A DNA stretch of 64,000 bases from Nocardioides oleivorans (GTDB lineage: Bacteria; Actinomycetota; Actinomycetes; Propionibacteriales; Nocardioidaceae): NCBI RefSeq assembly GCF_004137255.1, contig NZ_SDWT01000001.1, positions 2,108,001-2,172,000 on the forward strand. The letters are read 5' to 3'. Below the pieces are notes generated by a model. That model had not been told where the DNA came from. It searched no databases and was given only the letters and a program-made list of their open reading frames with translations. Positions 23,584 through 27,019 of this stretch are shown piece by piece (positions within the stretch are counted from its first letter, which is position 1; each line of letters starts with the position of its first letter). Made by a program: the position numbers and the translations under genes.

Positions 23584-24471
23584 CTAGGGGGCGGCCGGCT
23601 CCTGGGCGGCGAGCTTCTCGGCCACCAGCTCGATGCACCGGAGACGGGCCGGGGAGAAGTCGTAGGGCATCTTCTCGACTGCCGCGAGGGCGCTCGTCGA
23701 GCCCGGCCCGGACCCGGGTCCGGCGTCGACGTCGTCGGCCTGCGAGGCCTCCCAGGAGTCGAAGAACCTCTCTTCCTCCACCGCCTGGCCGGAGTCCTCG
23801 ATGACGGCGTTCAGCGCCAGCTCGAAGGCGTGTCGTCGCTCGGCCACCTCTGCCACGCGGGGGTCGTCGACGTCGACCGTGTCGTCCAGCGCCTCCTCGG
23901 CGGCGTCCACGCGGTCGGACTCCTCCTGCAGGTCGGGGTGGGCGGCCAGGGCGACGAACCGGCCGGCCTGGATGGCCGCGCCGAGCGGACCGAAGATCCG
24001 TTCGGTGACCAGCAGGGTGTCCAGGTCCGCCTGGCGCAGGGAGCCCTCGGGCACCGACGCAAGGCGCGCGGTCACCAGGTCGGAGAGCAGGCCCCTCCTG
24101 CTGCCTGCGGCGAGCATGCGCTGCACGGCGCTCCGCTGCTCCTGCAGCTCGGCCTCGCGGGCGGCGAGGGTCTCCTCCAACCGCTCGAGGATCGCCGCGA
24201 CCTCGTGGTCGCCGTCGGAGCCGGCGGGAGCCGGATCGGCGAAGGCGGCCCGCACGTCGTCGAGGGCGATCCCCGCGTCGGCCATCCGGCGGATCCACAG
24301 CAGCCGGATCATGTCGTCGTACCCGTAGCGGCGTCGGTCGTCGGTGCCCCGCTCGGGCTCGGGGAGCAGGCCGATCTCGTGGTAGTGGCGGATCGCTCGG
24401 GGCGTGGTGCCGACGAACGCTGCCGCGTCACCGATCTTGACCTGGCGCGGGATGGCGAACGGCAAGCTCAT
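23584..24471 (-). CDS. MerR-family transcriptional regulator
   Basis: 295 residues. The winged helix lies at about residues 10-80 (VKIGDAAAFVGTTPRAIRHYHEIGLLPEP, then RRYGYDDMIRLLWIRRM). A coiled-coil dimerisation helix follows at about 115-150, and then a long acidic and Ala-rich C-terminal domain without Cys clusters, so it senses something other than a thiol-bound metal. AAGAAGGAG stands 4 nt before the ATG at 24471. It converges on the ABC exporter operon and is divergent from the leader at 24.6 kb; its targets may be either. Confidence 0.9.
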   Translation of the reverse strand: MSLPFAIPRQVKIGDAAAFVGTTPRAIRHYHEIGLLPEPERGTDDRRRYGYDDMIRLLWIRRMADAGIALDDVRAAFADPAPAGSDGDHEVAAILERLEETLAAREAELQEQRSAVQRMLAAGSRRGLLSDLVTARLASVPEGSLRQADLDTLLVTERIFGPLGAAIQAGRFVALAAHPDLQEESDRVDAAEEALDDTVDVDDPRVAEVAERRHAFELALNAVIEDSGQAVEEERFFDSWEASQADDVDAGPGSGPGSTSALAAVEKMPYDFSPARLRCIELVAEKLAAQEPAAP

Positions 24472-24557
24472 GGGGCTCCTTCTTTTCGTGGGTGGGCGTG
24501 GGTCAACCGGACCACATCACGTTGCGTGAGGTGCAAGTCCGCCGGCGGGTTAATGCG

Positions 24558-24586
24558 TTGAGCGCCCGCGTGCAGCGACGTAGGGT
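24558..24586 (+). promoter_or_regulatory. Promoter of the structured leader
   Basis: TTGAGC (24558-24563) and TAGGGT (24581-24586) are 17 nt apart. Transcription would begin near 24593, just before a full-length Shine-Dalgarno sequence at 24601-24610. Confidence 0.65.
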
Positions 24587-24600
24587 CGAGGCACACAGAA

Positions 24601-24610
24601 GGGAGGTGAT
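24601..24610 (+). promoter_or_regulatory. Unusually complete Shine-Dalgarno sequence
   Basis: GGGAGGTGAT matches the 3' end of 16S rRNA almost fully, far better than the sites of neighbouring genes. It lies 7 nt before the ATG of a 12-codon ORF. Confidence 0.7.
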
Positions 24611-24617
24611 CCGAAGA

Positions 24618-24656
24618 ATGAGTTCTTTTCGGATGAGTGAGGTGGCTGCCCGCTAG
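24618..24656 (+). CDS. 12-residue leader peptide
   Basis: The ATG at 24618 follows the full Shine-Dalgarno site and the frame ends at TAG 24654-24656, giving MSSFRMSEVAAR. The start codon lies in the loop of one hairpin and the stop codon in the loop and right arm of the next. This is the geometry seen when ribosome stalling or passage controls folding of a leader. The peptide also resembles the first residues of excisionase-type DNA-binding domains (FRMSEVAA), so a gene remnant is an alternative reading. Confidence 0.55.
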   Translation: MSSFRMSEVAAR

Positions 24657-24877
24657 GCAGCCCGGTCCGCCGACAGCTGCCGGCGAATCCATCGCAGCCA
24701 CCCGACCCGCAGGCGCCCGGTTGTCATCCGCCGGGGCCCTCTTCCGAGGGCAGTACGCCTGCGGGTCGCTGCATTTCCCCGCGCCCCCGCCCCTTCTTGG
24801 TACGGCACCACGCCGGTTCGCCGTTGTGGCGCAGGTCTCGTCGTCGCCGAGTGGCCGGATGGTTGCCGGAGGCGTAA

Positions 24878-24894
24878 AGTTGTGGTCAACAACT
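24878..24894 (+). promoter_or_regulatory. Candidate MarR operator
   Basis: AGTTGTGGTCAACAACT has perfect 6-bp arms around a 5-nt centre. It lies 35 nt before the MFS gene start and overlaps a TAAAGT (24875-24880) that could be a second -10 box. MarR proteins commonly bind such TTG...CAA palindromes. Confidence 0.65.
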
Positions 24895-24929
24895 ATTGCG
24901 AACGGCAACCAAGAATCGCAGGCAATGCA

Positions 24930-26534
24930 GTGACACAGGCTCCCACCATCAGCGCCGAGCAGAACGGCCAGATGACCCACCGCGAGGTGCTCGAGGCGCT
25001 CAGCGGCCTCCTCCTCGCGATGTTCGTCGCGATGCTCTCCTCCACGATCGTCAGCAACGCGCTGCCGACCATCGTCGACGACCTGAAGGGCAGCCAGACC
25101 GGCTACACGTGGGTCGTCGTCGCGACGATGCTCGCGATGACCGCGACCACCCCGATCTGGGGCAAGTTCGCCGACCTCTTCGACAAGAAGGTCCTCGTGC
25201 AGTCGGCGCTGGTCATCTTCTCGATCGGCTCCGTCGTCGCCGGCTTCGCGCCCTCGATGGAGGTGCTGATCGGCGCCCGCGTCGTGCAGGGCCTCGGCGT
25301 CGGTGGCCTCACCGCGCTCGTCCAGGTCGTCATCGCCTCGATGGTCTCCCCGCGTGAGCGTGGCCGCTACAGCGGCTACATCGGCGCCGTCTTCGCCCTC
25401 GCGACCGTCAGCGGCCCGCTCGTCGGTGGCGTGCTGGTGGACACCGTCGGCTGGCGCTGGTGCTTCTTCGCCGGGCTCCCCGTCGCGGCCCTGGCCTTCG
25501 TGGTCCTGCAGAAGACCCTGCGCCTCCCCGTCGTCAAGCGTGACGACGTCTCGATCGACTACCTCGGCGCGTTCCTCCTCGTCGGCGGCGTCTCGATCCT
25601 GCTCATCTGGGTCTCCCTCGGTGGCCAGAACTTCGACTGGGTCTCGACGACCAGCGCCCTCCTCGTCGTCGGGTCCCTCGCGGTCATCGGCGCGGCGATC
25701 TACGTCGAGGCCAACGTGGCCAAGGATCCGGTCATCCCGCTGCGCCTCTTCAAGGACCGCACGCTGACCCTCGCCACGGTCGCCTCGGTGCTGATCGGTG
25801 TCGCGATGTTCGGCTCGACGGTCTACCTCAGCCTTTACTTCCAGCGTGCCAAGGACATGAGCCCGACCGAGGCCGGCCTGATGTCGATCTGCATGGTCGG
25901 CGGCCTCCTCGTCTCGAGCATCACCAGCGGTCGGATCATCTCCGCGACCGGTGTCTGGAAGCGCTGGCTCGTCGCCGGCATGGTCGCGGTCATCCTCGGC
26001 ATCGGCCTGCTCTCCACGATCGACGCCGACACCCCGCTGTGGCACACCGGCATCTTCATGGCGGTCCTCGGCCTCGGCCTCGGCGCCACGATGCAGAACC
26101 TCGTCCTCGCCGTGCAGAACACCATCGCCCTCTCCGACATGGGCGCCGGCTCCTCGGTGGTCGCGTTCTTCCGCTCGCTCGGTGGCTCGGTCGGCATCGC
26201 CGCCCTCGGCGCCGTGCTCTCGACCCAGGTCGCCGACTCGGTGCAGGCCGGGCTGGCCAAGCTGCTCGCCGCGCACCCGGAGTACGCCGACGCCGTCGGC
26301 CACAGCCAGGGCGGCATCCCCGACGTGTCGGGCATGCCGGCTCCGCTGCGGGCGATCTTCGAGAGCGCCTTCGGTGACGCGACCGGCCACATCTTCCTCG
26401 TGGCCCTGCCGTTCGCCATCGGCGCGCTGATCGCGGTGCTCTTCATCAAGGAGGTGCCGCTGCGCACCTCGGTGAAGCGCGACGACGAGCTCATGGCCGA
26501 GGTCAGCCCGGTCTCACCCGCTTCTCAGGTGTGA
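24930..26534 (+). CDS. MFS drug exporter, DHA2 (EmrB/QacA) family
   Basis: 534 residues with about 14 membrane helices, the DHA2 pattern of proton-coupled multidrug exporters. Family signatures include the N-terminal LDTTIVNVALP-like block (here MLSSTIVSNALPTI), WGKFADLFDKK in loop 2-3, and GVGGLTALVQ then VSGPLVGGVLVD (motif C). I chose the GTG at 24930; upstream GTG 24882 falls inside the MarR-type operator. Only a weak AGG precedes the start. The stop overlaps the marR-type gene (GTGA), so pump and regulator are co-expressed. The leader RNA upstream adds a second possible control level. Confidence 0.93.
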   Translation: MTQAPTISAEQNGQMTHREVLEALSGLLLAMFVAMLSSTIVSNALPTIVDDLKGSQTGYTWVVVATMLAMTATTPIWGKFADLFDKKVLVQSALVIFSIGSVVAGFAPSMEVLIGARVVQGLGVGGLTALVQVVIASMVSPRERGRYSGYIGAVFALATVSGPLVGGVLVDTVGWRWCFFAGLPVAALAFVVLQKTLRLPVVKRDDVSIDYLGAFLLVGGVSILLIWVSLGGQNFDWVSTTSALLVVGSLAVIGAAIYVEANVAKDPVIPLRLFKDRTLTLATVASVLIGVAMFGSTVYLSLYFQRAKDMSPTEAGLMSICMVGGLLVSSITSGRIISATGVWKRWLVAGMVAVILGIGLLSTIDADTPLWHTGIFMAVLGLGLGATMQNLVLAVQNTIALSDMGAGSSVVAFFRSLGGSVGIAALGAVLSTQVADSVQAGLAKLLAAHPEYADAVGHSQGGIPDVSGMPAPLRAIFESAFGDATGHIFLVALPFAIGALIAVLFIKEVPLRTSVKRDDELMAEVSPVSPASQV

Positions 26535-27019
26535 GCACCACAATGACCGCCGTGAGCACCACGAGGAGCACGACCACCAGGTCCCGCTACGACGACCTCC
26601 GCGCCATCGAGGCCGAGGTCGGCACCCTGATCCGACGCGTCAAGAGGGTGATCGGCGAGCGCGCCCGGGAGGTGCACCCCGACCTGCACCCGATGACCTT
26701 CTTCATCCTCACCCACCTGGCGAAGGAGGGGCCGATGCGCGGCGCCGACCTCTCCGACGCCTTCGGGATGGACAAGGGTGGCGTCAGCCGCCAGGTGCAG
26801 GCACTGGTCGACCTCGGCCTCGTGGAGCGGATGCCCGACCCCGAGGACCGTCGGGCGATCCTGCTCGACGCCTCGGACGAGGGCCGCTCGCGCCTCGAGG
26901 CGATGAGCCGTCGTCGCAGCGACCGCTTCGACGAGCGGCTCGGGGCCTGGTCCGACGAGGACCTCGCGACGTTCTCCGCCCAGCTGACGGCGTACAACAC
27001 CGCGCTCAGCGACGACTGA
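26531..27019 (+). CDS. MarR-family transcriptional regulator
   Basis: 162 residues. The winged helix spans about residues 55-125: MRGADLSDAFGMDKGGVSRQVQALVDLGLVERMPDPEDRR is the HTH and wing region (positions about 69-108). The GTG start overlaps the MFS stop by 4 nt; an ATG at 26543 is an alternative that drops four residues. It most likely represses the pump-regulator pair at the palindrome 24878-24894 and releases on binding a pump substrate; this is inference from layout. Confidence 0.92.
   Translation: MSTTMTAVSTTRSTTTRSRYDDLRAIEAEVGTLIRRVKRVIGERAREVHPDLHPMTFFILTHLAKEGPMRGADLSDAFGMDKGGVSRQVQALVDLGLVERMPDPEDRRAILLDASDEGRSRLEAMSRRRSDRFDERLGAWSDEDLATFSAQLTAYNTALSDD

Follow-up and report, generated by a model that had tools for sequence, protein, structure and literature searches.

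A widespread Ms_IGR-5 small-RNA gene with a conserved mini-ORF and a putative WhiB7-type promoter, adjacent to a drug exporter in Nocardioides oleivorans

The window analyzed here (64,000 nucleotides from Nocardioides oleivorans, contig NZ_SDWT01000001.1, positions 2,108,001 to 2,172,000 of the forward strand) contains a promoter, a very short ORF and several hairpins upstream of a drug exporter gene. Does this region control the exporter as its leader, or is it a gene in its own right? The preliminary description favored a leader and did not assign it to a known family. The region and its surroundings comprise:

24593-24774, + strand: Ms_IGR-5 small RNA (RF02471), full length, covariance-model match
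24852-24894, + strand: exporter promoter TGGCCG-N17-TAAAGT with a MarR-type palindrome (24878-24894), outside the RNA gene
24930-26534, + strand: DHA2-type MFS exporter with a GTG start (neighbor)
26531-27019, + strand: MarR-family regulator (neighbor)

A gene for a MerR-family regulator is located upstream of the RNA in divergent orientation (23587-24471). When searched against Rfam, the window gave RF02471 (Ms_IGR-5) at 24593-24774 on the + strand, with 98.8 bits (gathering threshold 45 bits) and an E-value of 5e-23. The model is covered end to end (1-184 of 184). Its first position is the RNA start that had been proposed (24593), while the statement that no known family matches had to be given up. 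The RNA strand from 24593 folds at -107.1 kcal/mol, compared to -75.4 kcal/mol for shuffled sequences (z -6.6). The window RNA shares the start, the ORF region, the hairpin around the stop codon and the terminator with Ms_IGR-5, and there is no essential difference. Rfam files the family as an sRNA gene. Its transcription as an sRNA is on record for S. lividans (PMC8079986) and for M. smegmatis (PMC10454040), and ribosome footprints on the RNA are reported for M. abscessus and M. smegmatis (PMC4974804). A literature search for functional work on Ms_IGR-5 found none.

The RNA was detected in 250 of the 395 genomes sampled across the class, mostly as a single copy; the genome of Nocardioides oleivorans also has only one. 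Promoter and terminator are conserved in the loci, and the transcripts on record are from other species. No mobile copies were found on the plasmids searched. The sole "phage" match is a GenBank record named "Bacteriophage sp." (L265, MT835602.1), which contains a complete Ms_IGR-5 preceded by a promoter of the WhiB7 type; the adjoining ORFs resemble bacterial chromosomal genes, and the record is probably mislabelled. The segment 24593-24774 is a very widespread actinobacterial small-RNA gene, separate from the adjoining drug pump. It is a regular member of an established family and was taken for a pump leader owing to its position.

As a drug-sensing leader, the RNA would allow read-through of its terminator into the exporter when ribosomes stall on the ORF. 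It does have the parts of an attenuator, with a conserved short ORF that overlaps alternative helices, and the exporter is the next gene, in the same orientation, in this genome and in six sampled relatives. However, only some of the window's relatives have the MFS-MarR pair after the RNA. In most genera, an unrelated gene comes next, encoding for instance PdxH, NlpC/P60, a methyltransferase, a LuxR response regulator or a heme-binding barrel protein of the THAP4 type. Among 60 loci sampled from many genera, this gene is on the opposite strand in 34 (an approximate count, as the gene calls were mechanical). No gene is conserved directly downstream on the same strand. Moreover, the RNA is listed among the sRNA transcription units of S. 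avermitilis (PMC8780764). A promoter of its own precedes the exporter, together with the palindrome AGTTGTGGTCAACAACT at 24878-24894, which is of the MarR type as had been proposed. In the clade of the window, these are located approximately 80-130 nt past the RNA terminator. By eye, a GTTG...CAAC repeat and a further -10-like element are seen between terminator and exporter start in the seven genomes inspected; a perfect-palindrome filter lists the repeat in some of them only. As the exporter has a promoter and a palindrome to itself, the two control layers that had been attributed to it belong to two separate transcription units. The leader function was rejected based on synteny and the separate promoter, and we consider it highly improbable. 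Antibiotic-inducible pump leaders such as that of bmrCD from B. subtilis (PMC4191407) also have a mini-ORF and hairpins before the pump gene but, unlike these, Ms_IGR-5 does not have a pump consistently downstream.

The RNA starts with a ribosome binding site and a mini-ORF:

24597-24612, + strand: near-complete Shine-Dalgarno sequence AGAAGGGAGGTGATCC, conserved in all loci
24618-24656, + strand: 12-codon mini-ORF, encoding MSSFRMSEVAAR followed by a stop, from ATG (24618-24620) to TAG (24654-24656)

In AGAAGGGAGGTGATCC, 15 of the 16 bases agree with the usual anti-Shine-Dalgarno complement, as had been noted. The ORF was compared in loci that had been collected without any requirement for a start or a stop codon. 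ATG, GTG or TTG occurs exactly seven codons before an invariant GAG-GTG in 178 of 181 loci, and CTG in none. In the remaining three (L109, L135 and L177), the start codon is an ATG that is shifted upstream by one or two whole codons, with the frame kept. A stop codon (TAG, TAA or TGA) is at codon 13 in 179 of 181 loci. If the last two bases of the stop varied independently, approximately 12 loci would have TGG at this codon, but only one was observed (Fisher p 2e-11). Given the conservation of start and stop and the depletion of TGG, the mini-ORF is very probably translated.

The conservation of the stems and of the ORF, which had been suggested as a check, proved to be strong; that of the peptide did not. 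Length and frame of the ORF are nearly invariant and codons 6-11 mostly encode T-x-E-V-A-(A/V), as would be expected if the RNA were a mini-mRNA with a functional 12-residue peptide as its product. However, hypervariability is seen at codons 2-4, and at codons 5, 7 and 12 it is chiefly the first base that varies, which alters the amino acid freely. GAG-GTG is invariant at every base, third positions included, although this is partly built in, as GAG-GTG was partly required when choosing loci. Variable codons together with invariant third bases indicate a constraint at the level of the RNA, and a functional peptide is quite improbable. The comparison suggests that the ORF is kept by selection as an ORF while its peptide is weakly constrained. 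Selection would then preserve translation as such, more than its product.

The ORF is embedded in the following fold:

24609-24634, + strand: P1 start hairpin, 24609-24613 with 24630-24634; the loop holds the start codon
24641-24702, + strand: P3 helix, GGTGGCTGC (24641-24649) with GCAGCCACC (24694-24702); the stop codon is enclosed
24631-24729, + strand: pseudoknot, ORF GGATG (24631-24635) with CATCC of the terminator loop (24725-24729)
24703-24778, + strand: terminator, a 13-bp stem (24703-24715 with 24756-24768) and a pyrimidine-rich tail

A structure-blind alignment of 42 loci was submitted to RNAalifold, and the consensus contains P1, P3 and the terminator. In the window, the 13-bp stem of the terminator encloses CCCGG...CCGGG; it is the long-range stem enclosing a hairpin that was described before, although with a length of 12 bp. 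Throughout the family, P3 is formed by ORF codons 8-11 and GCAGYCACC, and the pseudoknot by the ORF segment GGACN and NGUCC in the apical loop of the terminator. Both covary, and both are missing from the consensus structure of RF02471 in Rfam. For the fold including the pseudoknot, 95.8% of the cells are paired, compared to 86.8% when shuffled and 30-53% when slid, and 100 cells are changed on both sides, compared to 32 in the control; relatedness inflates the covariation counts but is retained in the slid controls. At codon 6, which mostly encodes threonine, the third base tracks its partner in the loop, being Watson-Crick paired in 88 of 140 loci (43.7 upon permutation), and the next pair of the pseudoknot is changed from C-G to T-A in 19 loci. 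P1 and the pseudoknot compete for the same ORF bases. Covariation is weak for P1, which is less well supported than P3 and the pseudoknot. A further helix around the stop codon, P4, has moderate support with fixed offsets. A pairing between Shine-Dalgarno sequence and 3' tail, present in the minimum-energy fold of the window, was tried and rejected because it is not conserved (longest run 5.40, compared to 5.37 with shuffled tails).

Just 5' of the second strand of P3, the stretch GGCGAAUYCC (24682-24693 in the window, and homologous stretches elsewhere) is highly conserved and partly unpaired. A protein or tertiary contact is possible at this site. In one member from the same genus (L222 in G343), the stop codon and the second strand of P3 are separated by a long insertion.

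The RNA might also be a classical trans-acting sRNA that base-pairs through its C-rich loops or the Shine-Dalgarno segment, the ORF being of minor relevance. It is stand-alone, terminated and highly structured, and its GUCC loop and AAUYCC internal loop are conserved. Start and stop codons that are selected as such, and a C-rich loop that covaries with the RNA's own ORF, speak against it. We consider this explanation rather unlikely on its own, but it is compatible with the one that we prefer (see below), and the two can coexist.

When is this RNA made? The relevant features are:

24549-24554, + strand: AT tract GTTAAT, putative WhiB7 site, 3 nt 5' of the -35 element
24558-24586, + strand: promoter TTGAGC (24558-24563), 17-nt spacer, TAGGGT (24581-24586)

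This promoter is the one already recognized. Its -35 and -10 elements and the AT tract are common to the loci, upstream of the RNA start. A promoter scan based on the E. coli sigma-70 consensus called no promoter at the RNA gene, as is expected for promoters of actinobacteria. The tract at -41 to -46 also fits the position of the proximal UP-element subsite, so that it might be a UP element or background, with the RNA outside of WhiB7 control. For WblC sites, PMC7157823 gives GAAAWY 3 bp upstream of the -35 element, a spacer of 16-19, TANNNT, and transcription starting 7-8 nt further on. At the expected position, at least four of the six GAAAWY positions match in 114 of 141 loci, compared to 6 of 47 control sites; in a larger set, 148 of 180 loci match at this level. 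The match is highest at 3 nt from the -35 element, as published for WblC, which argues against a UP element. The tract in the window, GTTAAT, is a loose match for a single site (4/6 to GAAAWY, 5/6 AT, spacer 17). A scan of its own genome for the exact GAAAWY-type promoter pattern had zero matches, indicating that the consensus is looser here. The same genome encodes WhiB7 (L215, with the AT-hook KRPRGRPRK), and the whiB7 promoter carries ATAAAATcgtTTGCCC in the same layout as the RNA promoter.

WhiB7 was found in 244 of the 250 genomes that have the RNA (the six others include one with a split WhiB7 and two whose assemblies are incomplete) and is absent from 71 of the 145 genomes without the RNA, a co-occurrence that is confounded by descent across the class. 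A sister genus within the Nocardioidaceae (the genus of G247; L248-L263, L220) apparently lacks WhiB7 in all 49 genomes, where the search returned one weak, non-orthologous match. No RNA match was found in 32 of these 49 genomes. In the 16 readable RNA promoters of this genus, the AT tract is degraded while -35 and -10 are intact (p 1e-9; 1e-5 within the family), the genus being a single clade with non-independent loci, which counts as one natural experiment. Four of the 16 still have an AT content of 4/6 in the tract. Another genus (g48) has no WhiB7 match, yet a partial AT tract is kept. Degradation of the tract with an intact core promoter speaks against a UP element or background, which we regard as unlikely. 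A promoter of the WhiB7/WblC-activated type is strongly indicated by these comparisons, and such a promoter implies that the RNA is made during translation inhibition. The proposed link to ribosome-targeting drugs can thus be retained, but it runs via the promoter and not via a pump leader. Four independent intergenic sRNAs under WblC are reported in PMC7157823. The same paper names citA among the WblC-repressed promoters. A citrate synthase-like gene is located approximately 1.1 kb downstream of the RNA, past pdxH, in Streptomyces-type loci (L045, L053, L081); it may or may not be this citA.

Judged by comparison of the loci, Ms_IGR-5 is an autonomous gene in which a promoter of its own and an intrinsic terminator are conserved, with a maintained ORF and covarying helices that bury this ORF. 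Our preferred explanation, with a probability of roughly 0.7, is a self-standing small RNA that belongs to the WhiB7 response to translation stress, with a fold that competes with ribosomes on the mini-ORF. WhiB7 would switch the RNA on when translation is inhibited. The near-complete Shine-Dalgarno sequence and the ORF would draw a ribosome, which would hold open P1, P3 and the pseudoknot between ORF and terminator loop. Once initiation or elongation becomes impaired, the RNA would close into its compact fold, and the changed ribosome occupancy might determine how stable it is or how far it is available to act in trans. Ribosome occupancy and fold would be mutually exclusive, and the RNA would report or respond to failing translation. 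More tentatively, and with less than an even chance, we speculate that this is a class-wide WhiB7-induced RNA that senses ribosome availability, its ORF translated for the sake of occupancy, with the pseudoknot as the switch, and that it acts in trans.

SgrS/SgrT is a dual-function sRNA that combines structure and ORF in one small RNA. Ms_IGR-5 resembles sRNAs of this type but, unlike there, the ORF sits inside the fold and the peptide is poorly conserved. The upstream-ORF attenuator of whiB7/wblC, as described in PMC4128351 and PMC7157823, also has a short ORF and a terminator and is linked to translation-inhibiting drugs; a strong Shine-Dalgarno sequence is a further similarity. That attenuator, however, is a cis leader of whiB7, while Ms_IGR-5 is a separate gene without a conserved downstream gene.

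Ms_IGR-5 is a widespread actinobacterial RNA that is listed without a function in the papers found. New here are an ORF apparently selected as such, the covariation of P3 and the pseudoknot, and the putative WhiB7/WblC promoter layout. The evidence for the mini-ORF corrects the label of Ms_IGR-5 as a purely non-coding RNA. In mycobacteria and Streptomyces, intrinsic resistance is regulated by WhiB7, the master regulator against ribosome-blocking antibiotics. The probable tie to WhiB7, together with a mini-gene that is very probably translated, leads to a direct hypothesis on the role of this RNA that can be tested cheaply.
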